IMG/VR virus record: IMGVR_UViG_3300046336_000116
Coordinates: 1 to 23,005 of that record
Strand: one strand, 5' to 3'
Length of the DNA stretch: 23,005 bases
Source of the DNA: a virus
Every line of letters starts with the position of its first letter. The stretch's first letter is position 1. Below are positions 2,703 to 8,305 of the stretch, in pieces. Both the position numbers and the translations under genes were made by a program. The notes below the pieces were generated by a model, which was given only the letters and a program-made list of their open reading frames with translations, searched no databases and was not told the origin of the DNA.

Positions 2703-4286
2703 TTATGCTGCATCTAATTCGATGCTGTCCGCCGGTGCTTCTGAATCGCCTGCTACTACTGAGTCAGGTGAGTATAGTTTTGTAATGAGTTGTGGATCAT
2801 CCAACGCAATTCCACGCTCTTCACGCAACATGCGCTCATTTTCAATTATTTCATTCTGTGTCATTTGCAGATAACGCCTTGCTGCGAATCGTGGGGACAG
2901 GGTTGCTACAGTACTTGTCTGGCTTAGCAAGTTGAGTAGAGCAGCATCCTTCTCAGCTTGACGATAAGAGTCAAAGTTGCTAGGTTTAGGTAGTACAACC
3001 GAGAAGTAGTGGGGGTCGATCTTAATTCCAACACTCTTAACAAATGCTTTGAATTCTGCGTCGATGGTGATCTGGAGTGCAGTTTGCAATCGTTCAGTAA
3101 ACTTAGCGAACCGTGCTTCTTGGATGAACGCAGCGCCAACCTTACCATCATTGGTAACTGTAGGGCCATTCGTACCATCTCTGGTCCAACTGACTGGAAT
3201 TCTTAGTCCTTGAGCCAGTTTATCAGAGAAGTGATTCAAGTCAGAGAGTTCACCCAGATTCGCACCGCCAGGCAGTACCTCAATCTTACTTCCTCTTCCA
3301 CCCTCTCCTGATGTCGCAAGGAAGAAATCTTCCATCATATCTTGAGGATCATACATATTGTCGATTCCCGAGTCGCTAGAATTATTAACTGTTGGAATCT
3401 TCTTTTGACGCATCTCCAACTTAACCTGCTCCAGGTACGCTTTACGCCTTGGAGGTGGCATTTTACCAACATCGATATAAAACACACGTTTCTCCGGAGC
3501 TCGTTGAACACGGTATATGATGATGGAGTCTTCGATCAGCTTTTTTTGTTGATAAGCTCGATATACTGAATTGAGGATCGACAACCCAAAAGGTGCTGAT
3601 TCACTCATTCCATTGTTTAGGGTGAATCTCACCAATTTGCTCATAGGAGTAATTTCCAGGGTATTAGAGTTTACTCCCAGCGTCTTTGGTACTGTGCTTT
3701 TAAAGTTTTGATTTACCACGAGCCCAATTATGAGACTTGCGTTATTCTGATCGACGTATGCTCCTGATACATTCTTGATGGGGACATATTCCCAAGGGGA
3801 AAAGGTATCAACTTTGTTAAAGACAACGTCCCCATACTTGATCAGATGCCTGGCAATGTCAAATAGTTTAGCCTCCAACCCAATCATCTTACACCAGCGG
3901 CGCAGGGCAGTATTCAGAGTGACTTGTCCAATTTCATCAACAACATCAGTCTCCAGCTCTACTGAGAGTGTTTCGCCATCGTTCTCATTGGTCATCTCTT
4001 CTGCGATGATATCAAGTGCTCTTGACACATCAACATCTGAATCCATTAGATCATACTCAGCATATCGACTCAAGCGATTACCTGATCCGGTTACAATGTT
4101 GTTGTACCAGCCTGTGACAGTACTCATCGACATTGTATCGAAGGTAATGTTATCCTGGAGTTGGGTAGGAGTCGGTTCAATGTTTACTAACTTGAAGTAC
4201 CCCGAAAACTTAGCGTTTTCATTCATATTTGGATTGATGTGCGTGAGATAGTAGAACTTATTTAGCTCTACTATTGTTGGGCGCAA
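2703..4286 (-). CDS. 20: portal vertex protein, T4 gp20-like
   Basis: About 527 aa from the TTG at 4286, or 507 aa from the ATG at 4226. The portal is the dodecameric ring at the head vertex through which DNA is packaged and to which the tail joins. RYAEYDLMDSD (74-84) followed by ALDIIAEEMTNEN is a hallmark of T4-like portals. Further conserved-looking stretches are KYGDVVFNK, RAPEKRVFYIDVGKMPPPRR, and the GEGGRGSKIEVLPGG...LRIPVSWTRDG region. The length matches T4 gp20 (about 520 aa). The start is unclear: the TTG has no purine-rich ribosome site and lies only 3 nt past the tape-measure stop, whereas the ATG at 4226 begins MNENAKFSGYF and also lacks a clear site. Confidence 0.95.
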   Translation of the reverse strand: MRPTIVELNKFYYLTHINPNMNENAKFSGYFKLVNIEPTPTQLQDNITFDTMSMSTVTGWYNNIVTGSGNRLSRYAEYDLMDSDVDVSRALDIIAEEMTNENDGETLSVELETDVVDEIGQVTLNTALRRWCKMIGLEAKLFDIARHLIKYGDVVFNKVDTFSPWEYVPIKNVSGAYVDQNNASLIIGLVVNQNFKSTVPKTLGVNSNTLEITPMSKLVRFTLNNGMSESAPFGLSILNSVYRAYQQKKLIEDSIIIYRVQRAPEKRVFYIDVGKMPPPRRKAYLEQVKLEMRQKKIPTVNNSSDSGIDNMYDPQDMMEDFFLATSGEGGRGSKIEVLPGGANLGELSDLNHFSDKLAQGLRIPVSWTRDGTNGPTVTNDGKVGAAFIQEARFAKFTERLQTALQITIDAEFKAFVKSVGIKIDPHYFSVVLPKPSNFDSYRQAEKDAALLNLLSQTSTVATLSPRFAARRYLQMTQNEIIENERMLREERGIALDDPQLITKLYSPDSVVAGDSEAPADSIELDAA

Positions 4287-4289
4287 AAA

Positions 4290-7184
4290 CTATGAGGGAA
4301 CATTGATTACTGGTTGGCTGTACATAGCAGTGGCGATGCGAAGATTAGACCCGTTTCGCATATACTCATTGGTCAACTTAGTCTGACTTTCAGATTCAGG
4401 TTTATTAATCATCAACTCTAGTAACTGTACTACTCGCGCTGTCAATTGTTCTATGGCCACAAGGCTTTGGTCCCTACTAGGCTCGTCGGGGGTTTTTGTA
4501 CTAGTTGATGTTCCATCATTAGCACCAGGTAGGGTTTTTGCGGCGGATGTTAAACTGGAGATTGCGTCCGCTTTCTTGTCCGCTAATGCTGAGCTCATCA
4601 GCGGTTGGGATGGAGTTGCTATCTTACCTGGTTGGACATCAGTAGGGACATCACCCAACTTTGGGCTTGTTGGTGACTTAGTCCAATTTTGGTACAGACC
4701 ATATGCCCCTCCCATACCCGCACCAACTGCTGCACCAACTGCAGTACCAGCTACTGGTACGAACGACCCTATTGTCGCACCAAGCGCTCCACCTTGCAAA
4801 GCGTACCCTGCTGTATCGAGGGCCGCACCAGTTTTGATATTTCCCTTTGCTGTTTCAGCTTTCGCTCTATCGTCCAAAAACTCACCACCAATATATGAGG
4901 CTATTCCAGCTAATGATAGTTTGGATCCAATAGATGCGATCTTTCCAGCATTCCCTACTAGCGAACTTCCTCCTACTTTGGCGGCGTTTAATAGATATCC
5001 ACCACCTGTTTTTGTCGCATCCCAAGCTGTTTTAGCTGCAGAGCCTATCTTGCTCCCACTTGACTTGGCTACATCTGCGAGATATCCACCACCTGTTTTT
5101 GTCGCATCCCAAGCTGTTTTAGCTGCGGAGCCTATCTTGCTCCCTGTTTTCCTAGCTATTTCACCAACTTTACCAGCACCACCTTTCACACTATCCAGCG
5201 CACCTTTTGCTAAACTACCTACAGATGTTCTCATTTTCATCATCATGTATTTGATCGCGACACCGTGAAAAAACATTGTGGAGGTAAAATATGCAAGGCC
5301 GCCTGCGCCTTGTAGGATTGGATTTGTTAATATGCTGGATACACGGTCAACTAAAGTCGTAACCCCATTTGTTGCTGCTGATCCACTGGGTGATGCTGCT
5401 TTTGCAGCTGTTTGGTCAACGTCTTTGGCGCCTTGATTTACTATCCCGTATGCTGCATCAGTACCCTTGAGTTTATCTAATGATTCCTGCCACTGTTGTA
5501 ACACAGCTACATTCTTACCGGTATCACCTGCCGTGGTTTGAGAGTTAATCAGGAATTTAGCTTGTTCACCAATGATGCCTTTGAGTTCCGCACGCTCCTT
5601 GATAATTTGTTGTCCTTCAGGAGACGATGCTTGGACATTTCGTCCTCGCATTTCCAACTCGCGGTCTCGCTGTTGGGCGGCGGCAACCTTCGCAGCGCGG
5701 TCCCCATTACCAGTATCTCGTAGTCCCTTTTCTATTTGCGACACGTGTAACTGTTGAGTGTAGTAGTCTGTGAACTTAGACAGTGCTTTTTTATTGTGTT
5801 GTTGAGCTTGCAGTCGTATTAGTTCCTGAGCTTGCTCTATCGAATAACCGGCCTGTTTATACTGAGCCATTCTCTGCACTTGCTCTAGTAGGTACATGGA
5901 CTTTTGCTTCTCGCCCATACCCAACATGATTTCTCGCTGATCTGAATCCTTTGTGATGCCCTCAGTCATCTTAGCTATGGATATCGTGCTCAGTCCTGTC
6001 AATCGACTCAGTTTGCCGAACTGCTCTGTCAGATCACCAAGCAACTTGCCGCCAACAGGGGCTGAGATTCCCACCTCTTGAGTTGCGGATAGAATTCCTG
6101 CTCCTATCTGGGCAGCCTCATTACGACTCTCTGTAATATCGTACAGCCCTGCCAAGTTTCCGAATAGTGCTTGGTCAAACTTTGCTTGGGATCCAGCACT
6201 CAGTTCAGCCGCGCGTGTTGATTGTCGGATCTCCATCAACGTCTTTGTGTTTATACCCTGTGCAGCCGCAGTCCCATAGTTGCCTAATATGCTACTGTTG
6301 TTATCATTCCCACCGATTATCGAATTTGCGCCGCCTGTTGATCTCTGAGTGATCATATCACCATATACTGACGTTGCAGCACTTGCAAGAGATAGTCCAG
6401 CTACAAATTCCTTTACTCGCTTAGCCAGAGTTTCGAATACCGGGACAAGAGCGCCATTGGGCGCTGCTAGTTTAGCTGCTCGAGCGCTATTTGCTTTTGC
6501 TGTATCGTACTCAAGTTGAGCTCGCTTTTGAGCCGTTTGGTTCGCTAACGAACTGTGGGCTGCATATGCAGCCTTGGTGGCGGTTAGTCGAGTCGTAGCA
6601 TCAGATTCATTTTTTTCGGCGATTTGAGCTTGAATCGTCGACAGTTGTTTCTCAGCCGATATTCGTTCCTTACGAGAGGTAGATTCCTTGATTTTTAGTT
6701 CTACGGACTGTTTTTCTAATTCAAGTTGTTTTGCAAACTGCTCACTCGAATCGTCGGTATACTGGATGATCGGCTCCATCACCTGCTTCATCTGATCGTG
6801 GAACTTGAGGTAATCAGCTTCGGCTGTTTTCAGAGCTCTCTCAGCGGCGGTGCGGGTATTAGCAGCAGCTTGTTGCAGAGTCTGCTGGGCAAGTGCAACA
6901 GCTTCTGCTAATTTTCGTTTGTCTTGCTCATTTGACTCCGTGAGGTTAACCAAAGAGTCAATCAGCTTCTGATCGACCTTTCTTGTGTCACGGTCCGATT
7001 TGAGTACCTGTCGACCAACCCCTACGGAATCTGTCGTAAGTCCTGATAGTAGGTCCAGTGCCTTAGCCAGGGGCTTAATTTGGCCTGTCATTATTGTTGA
7101 CAGTCTAGCCATGGCGCGTGTGAGTTCCTTCACATCAGCAGCTGATAATGTATTCCCTAATTGATTCTGCGGAGTTGTAGCCAT
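4290..7184 (-). CDS. tape-measure-like tail protein (964 aa)
   Basis: Starts at ATG 7184 (MATTPQNQLGN); a TTG four codons upstream is less likely. The first quarter (about residues 60-240) is Ala/Gln/Glu/Lys-rich and looks like long coiled coil. A hydrophobic patch ending AIKYMMMKM lies near residue 650. Then comes a 29-residue tandem repeat (about 681-731, unit GSKIGSAAKTAWDATKTGGG + YL + linker), and a Gly/Ala-rich hydrophobic stretch (LQGGALGATIGSFVPVAGTA and on). Coiled coil, a membrane-like segment and large size suit a tape measure, which sets tail length and is ejected ahead of DNA. Position supports this: in lambda-like phages the frameshifted assembly chaperones sit just upstream of the tape measure, as the gp26/gp51-like pair does here. 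T4 gp29 is shorter (590 aa). An internal virion protein is the alternative. Confidence 0.7.
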   Translation of the reverse strand: MATTPQNQLGNTLSAADVKELTRAMARLSTIMTGQIKPLAKALDLLSGLTTDSVGVGRQVLKSDRDTRKVDQKLIDSLVNLTESNEQDKRKLAEAVALAQQTLQQAAANTRTAAERALKTAEADYLKFHDQMKQVMEPIIQYTDDSSEQFAKQLELEKQSVELKIKESTSRKERISAEKQLSTIQAQIAEKNESDATTRLTATKAAYAAHSSLANQTAQKRAQLEYDTAKANSARAAKLAAPNGALVPVFETLAKRVKEFVAGLSLASAATSVYGDMITQRSTGGANSIIGGNDNNSSILGNYGTAAAQGINTKTLMEIRQSTRAAELSAGSQAKFDQALFGNLAGLYDITESRNEAAQIGAGILSATQEVGISAPVGGKLLGDLTEQFGKLSRLTGLSTISIAKMTEGITKDSDQREIMLGMGEKQKSMYLLEQVQRMAQYKQAGYSIEQAQELIRLQAQQHNKKALSKFTDYYTQQLHVSQIEKGLRDTGNGDRAAKVAAAQQRDRELEMRGRNVQASSPEGQQIIKERAELKGIIGEQAKFLINSQTTAGDTGKNVAVLQQWQESLDKLKGTDAAYGIVNQGAKDVDQTAAKAASPSGSAATNGVTTLVDRVSSILTNPILQGAGGLAYFTSTMFFHGVAIKYMMMKMRTSVGSLAKGALDSVKGGAGKVGEIARKTGSKIGSAAKTAWDATKTGGGYLADVAKSSGSKIGSAAKTAWDATKTGGGYLLNAAKVGGSSLVGNAGKIASIGSKLSLAGIASYIGGEFLDDRAKAETAKGNIKTGAALDTAGYALQGGALGATIGSFVPVAGTAVGAAVGAGMGGAYGLYQNWTKSPTSPKLGDVPTDVQPGKIATPSQPLMSSALADKKADAISSLTSAAKTLPGANDGTSTSTKTPDEPSRDQSLVAIEQLTARVVQLLELMINKPESESQTKLTNEYMRNGSNLRIATAMYSQPVINVPS
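4993..5144. repeat. 65-bp direct repeat pair, 87-bp period
   Basis: Copies at 4993-5057 and 5080-5144 differ at one base (gcagag versus gcggag). The period of 87 bp is exactly 29 codons, so the duplication keeps the tape-measure-like frame. Near identity of the DNA, not only of the protein, points to a recent duplication. Confidence 0.92.
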
Positions 7185-7268: not shown

Positions 7269-7499
7269 TTAATAGACCTGGAACTCTTTGTTAGACTCTG
7301 TAGTTAGGCGTTCACTGAGAAATTCGCCAATTAGTTGCCGTTCAGCAAAGCAACGGCGCATCATTTCCTCGTAAGATACTGCACCACGCATGAAGTACAC
7401 CAAATCTATAACAGTCTTGATTAACCCTCGCGCTTCATCTTCAAGAGCCGCGAACAGCTCTCGGATGCGGTCTACATCTCCAGACCTGAGGGTTCCGTA
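7269..7499 (-). CDS. gp51-like hub assembly chaperone, made by -1 frameshift
   Basis: A 76-codon stretch in the -1 frame relative to the upstream gp26-like gene, running from the end of the T7 tract to TAA at 7271-7269. It reads YGTLRSGDVDRIRELF..., then VYFMRGAVSYEEMMRR, RQLIGEFLSERL and EFQVY at the end. The YFMRGxxSYEE pattern resembles the short protein that follows gp26 in other T4-like phages. The frame has no ATG, GTG or TTG before a TTG in its conserved middle; upstream it is open only back to a TGA about 45 nt before the slip site. It is therefore most likely made as a C-terminal extension of the gp26-like protein (fusion of about 345 aa). The family name gp51 is given by position and pattern, not by a confirmed match. 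Confidence 0.72.
   Translation of the reverse strand, partial: YGTLRSGDVDRIRELFAALEDEARGLIKTVIDLVYFMRGAVSYEEMMRRCFAERQLIGEFLSERLTTESNKEFQVY
7469..7486 (-). promoter_or_regulatory. small hairpin downstream of slip site
   Basis: On the minus strand GGTCT and AGACC can pair around an 8-nt loop, beginning 12 nt after the T7 heptamer. The hairpin includes the zero-frame stop. A stem 5-9 nt downstream is more usual for -1 frameshift stimulation and this one has only 5 bp, so its role is uncertain. Confidence 0.35.
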
Positions 7500-8305
7500 A
7501 AAAAACTTAGTGGATTCAAAGGGACAATAGTCGTGAATGACTCACCACAATCTTTACAAACTTGTTCTGTAGTAAAATCTACTCCCCAAGCGTTAGTGTT
7601 CTCAATTGTAGCGTTGAGTCGCTTGATCCAAGCCATCGGTAAATTATTCAACCACTCCAGAATATGATTTTCATCTGTAACATCACCAACCGATACAATT
7701 GCTGGCAGTATATTCAACAGTATGCTATCACGCATGTAATTTACTAACTCAAGTTCAGACATTGCTTCTAATTTGTCTTGTTGAGCAACGGCCGTTTGGG
7801 ATAGTGATAACACTGCACCCATTGTGTAAGGTTTAAGTTTCACAATTTGACCATTATCTAGGGTAGTTTCAAATAGTGTGGTTACTGTCGATGGGTCGAC
7901 ATTATTAGTGTCCTTAATAAAGCTACTCACATCTACGTTGTAGTTATGTTCATGAGCATCATCGCACGTGTGGGTATGTGTGATTGTTACGACAGACCCG
8001 AGGGAAATTTTGCGGAGCGCTATCAACAAGAAGTCAACATCTTTAGCTAATAGCTGCATTGGTTGTTTGATTTGAGGAATACACTTGCCGAATACTTGAG
8101 TTAGAGCCTGACCGCTGTAGATCAACTCAGGAGTTTTCATCAGTAACTCTTCATACGTCGTCATGGGTTGTACGTACACTTCACCCTCGACGAGGACAGT
8201 ATCATCTACTACAGTGTTGTCATAGAACAGAGCCAAGCTAGGTAACTTAACAGTCTCTCCGGGTAGACGAAATGATGTTGATTCTAATAGTGGATTGATA
8301 GACAT
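7472..8305 (-). CDS. 26: baseplate hub assembly protein, T4 gp26-like
   Basis: 277 aa from ATG 8305 (MSINPLLESTSFRLPG); a TTG nine codons upstream is possible. In T4, gp26 helps assemble the central hub of the baseplate. The N-terminal FRLPGETVKLPSLALFYD corresponds to the PSKGxFY-like opening of the T4 baseplate chaperone family, and the C-terminus has CKDC (250-253) followed by NPLSFF. The order of a gp26-like gene, a gp51-like frame and a large tail protein supports the call. NPLSFF is encoded by AGT TTT TTT, a run of seven T: ribosomes that do not slip stop at TAG 7474-7472 after TEPSGLEM; those that slip -1 continue into the gp51-like frame. A TAAATA motif inside the terminator-like hairpin just upstream could drive the gene. 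Confidence 0.82.
   Translation of the reverse strand: MSINPLLESTSFRLPGETVKLPSLALFYDNTVVDDTVLVEGEVYVQPMTTYEELLMKTPELIYSGQALTQVFGKCIPQIKQPMQLLAKDVDFLLIALRKISLGSVVTITHTHTCDDAHEHNYNVDVSSFIKDTNNVDPSTVTTLFETTLDNGQIVKLKPYTMGAVLSLSQTAVAQQDKLEAMSELELVNYMRDSILLNILPAIVSVGDVTDENHILEWLNNLPMAWIKRLNATIENTNAWGVDFTTEQVCKDCGESFTTIVPLNPLSFFTEPSGLEM
7499..7505 (-). promoter_or_regulatory. programmed -1 frameshift site, U_UUU_UUU
   Basis: The minus strand reads AGT TTT TTT ACG in the zero frame, so the heptamer T TTT TTT has exactly the X XXY YYZ phase needed for tandem tRNA slippage. Both tRNAs re-pair perfectly after a -1 shift. The -1 frame then stays open for 76 codons of conserved-looking protein without a start codon of its own. 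Confidence 0.72.

Follow-up and report, generated by a model that had tools for sequence, protein, structure and literature searches.

Comparative evidence for a probable programmed −1 frameshift in a gp26-like tail chaperone gene of T4-related phages

The gp26-like gene and its slip site

The window analysed in this study, the whole 23,005-base virus record IMGVR_UViG_3300046336_000116, carries on its minus strand a gp26-like gene with a run of seven Ts (T7) near its end and a second frame, displaced by −1, that stays open past the stop codon of that gene (Table 1). Genes for a T4-type portal (PF07230, E-value 3e-76) and a T4-type prohead protease (PF03420, 2.8e-23) lie on the same strand, and by its sequence the virus of bacteria behind the window is a T4-related phage. 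The gp26-like product belongs to PF12322 (T4_baseplate; E-value 1e-13, 52 bits, curated cut-off 24.5) and matches PHROG 150 "baseplate hub" (1.4e-15). The gene ends in AGT TTT TTT ACG GAA CCC TCA GGT CTG GAG ATG TAG, where, as an original prediction from the letters of the window had stated, a perfect U_UUU_UUU stands in slippery phase eight codons before the stop. From position 7541 onwards the −1 frame is open; 76 residues follow the two phenylalanines (Phe), YFMRGAVSYEE among them, and the first ATG, GTG or TTG after the slip is codon 35 (TTG), the first ATG being codon 39. The same prediction had described this frame as open for 76 codons, with a YFMRGxxSYEE segment and no normal start before its middle, and both descriptions hold. 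It is highly probable that programmed −1 ribosomal frameshifting at T7 yields two tail assembly chaperones from this one gene, TAC-N (short) and TAC-NC (long); the site, the frame, the selection and the stem statistics are read from sequence, and from them we infer ribosomal slippage, its rate and the chaperone role.

Table 1. Features around the putative frameshift site in the window
Feature	Position	Strand	Remarks
Slippery heptamer T_TTT_TTT	7499..7505	−	zero frame AGT TTT TTT ACG; 8 codons before the gp26-like stop
gp26-like gene, putative TAC-N	7472..8305	−	ATG at 8305, TAG at 7474-7472; 277 aa
−1 frame, putative C-terminal domain of TAC-NC	7269..7505	−	78 codons + stop
Predicted stimulatory stem, 5' arm AACCCUC	7488..7494	−	starts 4 nt after the heptamer
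Predicted stimulatory stem, 3' arm GAGGGUU	7423..7429	−	RNA fold
Large next gene, likely tape measure protein	4290..7184	−	964 aa; from position, length and composition only

Relatives were collected in several ways. A tblastn search with the gp26-like protein (E-value limit 0.01) gave 63 phage records, and one with the −1 frame alone matched XacN1, CM1/RAS14 and PA5oct-like phages (E-values 1e-11 to 5e-3); its weaker rows (E-values 4–7) are mostly chance. A single-protein search of viral contigs had a near-identical contig as its sole match. Sub-alignments were made from a 12-row gp26 set and two of them were used for scanning the viral contigs; the counts cover the relatives listed, namely the best 80 of 567 in one of these scans and the best 80 of 127 in the scan that gave the cyanophage-type loci. 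This yielded 114 loci (those first inspected, 96 from viral contigs among the matches listed, and loci adjoining related portal genes), 116 with DSL-LC02 and Ah1, and 195 with 79 cyanophage-type loci, the incomplete L203 being excluded from an initial 80. The 116 include phages present in both of two collections (CBB, RaK2, Atu_ph07, and the window with L003) and cluster at 90, 70 and 50% identity into 88, 55 and 23 groups. LIS04 (L024), which has no −1 heptamer, stands outside the 114, the 116 and the 195. Cygsa01, LR756511, LR756508, T4, phiAS4, SJ_PmiM, EC-F2 and Kaldavass were looked at and left uncounted, as were L001, L002, L004, L005, L007, L009, L010 and L012, which are duplicates or have no gp26 match.

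At the homologous place T_TTT_TTY is present in 194 of the 195 counted loci, the window included: 115/116 in the gp26-family set (as T_TTT_TTT or T_TTT_TTC) and 79/79 in the cyanophage-type set. The remaining locus, L080, reads T_TTT_TCC; its zero frame encodes FS, so that T_TTT_TTC is lost, but the overlapping A_AAT_TTT is kept, and its −1 peptide starts with KFFH as in neighbouring loci. Among the first 13 loci inspected, again including the window, 12 have T_TTT_TTY at the same Phe-Phe together with a −1 frame open beyond the gp26 stop, the exception being LIS04. An in-phase slippery heptamer with a −1 frame extending past the gp26 stop was found in 114/114 loci, two of which are cut by a contig end. 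The site had been located for the 114 and 116 counts by a script relying on the heptamer and the −1 Phe-Phe, and a recount using frame 0 only gave the same result.

Phe-Phe is kept in frame 0, and the constraint was therefore tested on synonymous sites. The frame-0 search found Phe-Phe in 115/116 loci, and in all 115 the codon in front, which takes eight forms across the gp26-family loci, has T at its third position, with TTT as the first Phe codon. The background frequencies of these two states in the same genes are 0.70 and 0.69, giving log10 P of −9.0 (preceding T) and −10.2 (TTT) with the 55 clusters at 70% amino-acid identity taken as independent. Elsewhere in the gp26 genes of these clusters, in-phase T_TTT_TT occurs once in 14,763 other codon positions, and among other Phe-Phe pairs in the 116 loci 1/35 stands in this context. 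A second in-phase heptamer of the window, C_CCT_TTG, 18 nucleotides (nt) upstream of T7, is missing from L006, the closest distinct relative, and looks like chance.

The −1 frame and RNA elements around the slip

Beyond the gp26 stop, changes in 25 disjoint locus pairs fall 192/104/537 on positions 1/2/3 of the −1 codons, with pooled proportions of nonsynonymous (pN) and synonymous (pS) change of 0.083 and 0.484, and the nonsynonymous rate (dN) is below the synonymous rate (dS) in 24/24 of the pairs with a computable dS. Between the window and L006 the changes are 12/8/39 over 198 nt. The third-position bias and a pN far below pS therefore mark the −1 frame as protein-coding and, at the sequence level, under protein selection. 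Its AlphaFold model is helical, with a mean predicted local distance difference test score (pLDDT) of 80, and Foldseek found no match of note for it in the PDB (best E-value 7.6). No Pfam family matched the domain of the window, and 43 members of the domain gave scattered weak matches only. One of the 43 weakly matches PF23746, Mu tail assembly protein gp41 (E-value 0.016), which is probably chance.

Downstream of the heptamer, the RNA of the window is predicted to form a branched fold closed by AACCCUC/GAGGGUU (−33.6 kcal/mol, z −3.9, 0/200 shuffles as stable). The z values are −3.4 for L006, −3.3 for XacN1 and −3.7 for Phosso, and range from −2.2 to −0.6 for the remaining nine of the 13 loci folded. 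Across the 55 clusters z averages −1.60, compared with −0.33 in 330 control segments from the same genes (Mann-Whitney p 1.3e-9), and values below −2 occur in 20/55 clusters and 28/330 controls. In a scan for helix starts, the score is highest 6 nt beyond the heptamer (mean 15.3 versus 8.3), where 22/55 clusters carry a strong helix against 1.4% of 37,744 control positions. The paired sequences vary by clade, for example CCATCAAGTCC/GGACTTGATGG, GGCTCTTTGT/ACAAAGAGCC and CCCTCCGATC/GGTTGGAGGG, while the position is kept; the stem is more conserved in position than in sequence. Cyanophage-type loci have strong helices beginning 5–8 nt after the heptamer, in 51 to 65 of the 79 loci per position (control 2%). 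RNAalifold found no consensus stem in 15 mixed cyanophage loci, 7 pairs in 29 others (3 with a rare double change) and a 10-pair stem in 8 marine loci, one pair of which is flipped between A-U and U-A in 3 and broken in 2; in these three sets it gave no consensus common to all loci.

The cyanophage-type loci (L135-L214) carry a further element upstream. GAGGG ends exactly 9 nt before the heptamer in 74 of the 79 and GAAGG in the other 5; a Shine-Dalgarno-like tetramer occupies this place in 79/79 loci, against 9% of positions. The Glu codon there is GAG in 24 of 27 cluster representatives (80% clusters), the gene average being 0.30 (binomial P 4e-10). In the window's group, by contrast, such an upstream stimulator occurs in 4/116 loci, with a background of 6.5%. 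Bacterial dnaX is frameshifted with a Shine-Dalgarno-like element upstream, a slippery heptamer and a stem downstream. The cyanophage-type loci have the same three-part layout (upstream GAGGG, slip and, in most, a stem), whereas the window's group is without the upstream element. Taken together, the conserved heptamer, the synonymous constraint, the protein selection on the −1 frame and the stems at canonical spacing in many relatives strongly support the programmed −1 frameshift that the original prediction had put forward.

Fold of the gp26-like protein and its relation to T4 gp51

The AlphaFold model of the gp26-like protein (pLDDT 90.6) was compared with known structures. In Foldseek against the PDB, after higher-ranked rows with a root-mean-square deviation above 20 were discarded, the most probable match shown was the HK97 tail assembly chaperone 2ob9 (probability 0.51, template-modelling score 0.45 on the target). 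VIA-align over 677 chains also ranked 2ob9 first (Z 6.8, 97 of 107 residues), followed by YqbN (3klu, Z 6.0), which we take to be a prophage tail chaperone. Two of these figures count against the chaperone fold, as a structural Z below 8 may reflect an arrangement shared by many proteins, and Foldseek gave an E-value of 0.65. At such Z values, which fall short of proof, the modelled structure points with moderate strength to a putative tail assembly chaperone fold. The likeness to lambda G/GT that had been proposed from gene position gains moderate support from the HK97 match, although the sequence family (PF12322) and the heptamer (U_UUU_UUY) differ from those of lambda, and the "hub protein" label given earlier is better replaced by tail assembly chaperone.

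Profile comparisons, whose values are single pairwise E-values rather than database E-values, connect the two parts with T4 gp51. A profile of T4 gp51 (6 sequences) matches that of the T4 gp26 family (4 sequences) at 1.7e-18, and by sequence gp51 is a gp26-like domain plus a C-terminal part. The conceptual frameshift products of DSL-LC02 and Ah1 (2 sequences) match T4 gp51 over its length (6e-17). A profile of 41 of the available jumbo-type products matches those two products along their length (4e-14) and T4 gp26 (7e-9). The direct comparison of the jumbo-type products with gp51 is weak (probability 14, E-value 0.002) and tells against the equivalence. Since T4 gp51 combines both parts, the whole frameshift product would correspond to gp51 (TAC-NC) and gp26 to TAC-N, which we consider likely; the −1 segment would be the counterpart of the C-terminal part of gp51, for the window's group by way of the cyanophage products, so that we infer through these intermediates that the product of the window itself is linked to gp51. 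The original idea of a gp26-like protein joined to a gp51-like one is thus borne out for the gp26-like gene and the presence of a −1 segment; the segment would answer to the end of gp51 only, and it is the joined product that would answer to gp51.

T4 itself has a different arrangement. Its gp26, which serves as a natural control for the synonymous sites, is of the same family (PF12322) as the window's protein and keeps Phe-Phe near its end as GAG TTC TTT GAG, without a T_TTT_TTY heptamer, and genes 26 and 51 lie on opposite strands, the long form coming from a separate gene. A broken tract with both proteins kept had been named beforehand as a finding that would speak against a shift; it does occur in T4, but there the long form has its own gene on the other strand. 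No in-phase heptamer was found within the last 200 nt of gp26 in phiAS4 and EC-F2. SJ_PmiM gp26 has two in-phase heptamers (A_AAT_TTA near the end), neither of which leads past the gp26 stop, as the −1 frame closes before it. In Kaldavass the site is present.

Alternative explanations, mechanism and implications

Several observations weigh against frameshifting as the general explanation, the support for which is comparative throughout. A strong helix at the exact 6-nt position is missing in 33/55 clusters, and several clusters are no more stably folded than shuffled sequence. In 12/116 loci the −1 frame has a start codon no later than 3 codons past the slip; in 8 of the 12 it is upstream of the slip, and among these is L006, close to the window, with a GTG 18 codons upstream. 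The first ATG comes before codon index 30 in 41/116 loci. Other relatives have no −1 heptamer at all. Listeria phage LIS04 (at 3120-3428) and L130 (LR756508) have the likely C-domain in the +1 frame, for which the sequence would possibly imply +1 or −2 shifting; the T run of LIS04 reads GAG TTT TTT AGT. The ATG that opens the C-domain open reading frame (ORF; 1809-1982) of Pseudomonas phage Cygsa01 (L126) overlaps the gp26 stop (TAATG); this ORF is annotated as a hub assembly catalyst, after a cyanophage protein.

Such cases bear on the best-surviving alternative, in which the C-domain is translated as a protein of its own, from its own start or through reinitiation downstream of the gp26 stop, and the heptamer is incidental. 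This is likely to apply in some relatives, such as Cygsa01 and LR756511, which has an ATG at the gp26 stop, though also an in-phase T_TTT_TTC, and the early −1 starts of the 12 loci are in its favour. In the cyanophage-type loci the first start is at codon index 5 past the slip in 59/79, and reinitiation could therefore supply a separate C-domain there. In the window, however, initiation at the first start, codon 35 of 78, would lose almost half of the conserved domain, FFYGTLRSG with it; of the 116 loci, 70 have their first ATG from codon index 30 onwards and 5 have no ATG; and the conservation of the heptamer at synonymous sites in 194/195 loci would be left unexplained. We therefore regard separate initiation as improbable for the window. 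RNA polymerase slippage, which is known on homopolymers, could join the frames in place of the ribosome, and the window's run is indeed T7, but in 185/195 loci the run is T6 and then C, or shorter, the codon phase is fixed, L080, whose T run is shorter, retains the frame arrangement, and a stem placed some 6 nt past the heptamer suits ribosome pausing, which makes this explanation very improbable. A sequencing error splitting one gene in two, for which T7 would be a typical place, is hardly credible, as named phage isolates have the same −1 arrangement and 195 loci share it with varying distances to the stop.

Under programmed frameshifting, most ribosomes would complete the gp26-like TAC-N, whereas a minority, paused by the stem just 3' of the site, would slip by −1 at U_UUU_UUU with two tRNA-Phe, bypass the TAG and add the 76-residue helical domain to give TAC-NC. 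By analogy with lambda G/GT, TAC-N would coat the tape measure protein, the C-domain of TAC-NC would recruit tube subunits, and the ratio of short to long form would be determined by slippage efficiency. The product of the presumed tape measure gene matched no PHROG or NCBIfam family and gave a weak Pfam glycine-zipper match under the cut-off; in LIS04 an annotated tape measure gene immediately follows the gp26-like gene.

The tail chaperones of P2 (E/E'), Mu and HK97 are of the same kind as lambda G/GT. Vladimirov, Gautam and Davidson (2022) are said, going by their title, to have identified the chaperone genes of T4-like phages and to have proposed a mechanism other than frameshifting. In the passages available, that study is credited with poly-T shift signals in T4-like TAC-N genes by the paper on Adele (PMC12846349) and with a separate long fusion gene in some T4-like phages by the PRFect paper (PMC10885494), so that chaperones of T4-like phages, some with poly-T shift signals, have apparently been reported earlier. 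According to the accessible part of the Adele paper, the TAC-N genes of Vandenendeviridae and Andersonviridae carry at their end a T-rich motif for −1 frameshifting, and the −1 frame is long and open in every genome aligned; that group differs from ours in its motif, GTTTTT, and is another phage group (PMC12846349). Among the papers listed, titles, abstract openings and passages, a coverage in which most subscription papers are absent, contained no description of frameshifting in jumbo or cyanophage gp26 genes, and the parts seen of PMC7650644, PMC9603447, PMC12859696, PMC11821841 and PMC12671138 had nothing on a gp26 shift site.

On the comparative evidence, the window is a well-supported extra case of the known tailed-phage frameshift, with very probably two chaperones from one gene. 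We also think it likely, with less assurance, that the −1 gp26 frameshift is widespread across T4-related phages and is probably the older state, T4 being derived, with its second gene 51, other branches using +1 placement or reinitiation, and the RNA elements differing between branches: the jumbo group would use slip and stem, to which cyanophages would add a GAGGG upstream, as in bacterial dnaX. A 2016 review, in the text available, describes the G-T frameshift as conserved among long-tailed phages "except T4" (PMC5009743); a frameshift in relatives would help to explain the divergence of this named exception, and, as the frameshift product likely has its counterpart in gp51, the exception becomes a testable story of gene duplication. 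Annotation would also need correction: in 14 annotated records examined that have the site, the frames are joined in 0; 3 lack an annotated C-domain, and 11 give it as a separate ORF of shorter length.

Two minor features remain. In a 12-sequence alignment of gp26-like proteins, Cys 84, 123, 259 and 262 are invariant; Cys 259 and 262 form a CxxC, which suggests a metal-binding site. Elsewhere in the window, the minus-strand ORFs 316-1032 and 1029-1814 are adjacent, overlap by 4 nt and match separate parts of PHROG 12810 (positions 261-456 and 35-247 of 788, respectively); their sequences resemble a split or fused gene, the downstream ORF resembling polynucleotide kinase.
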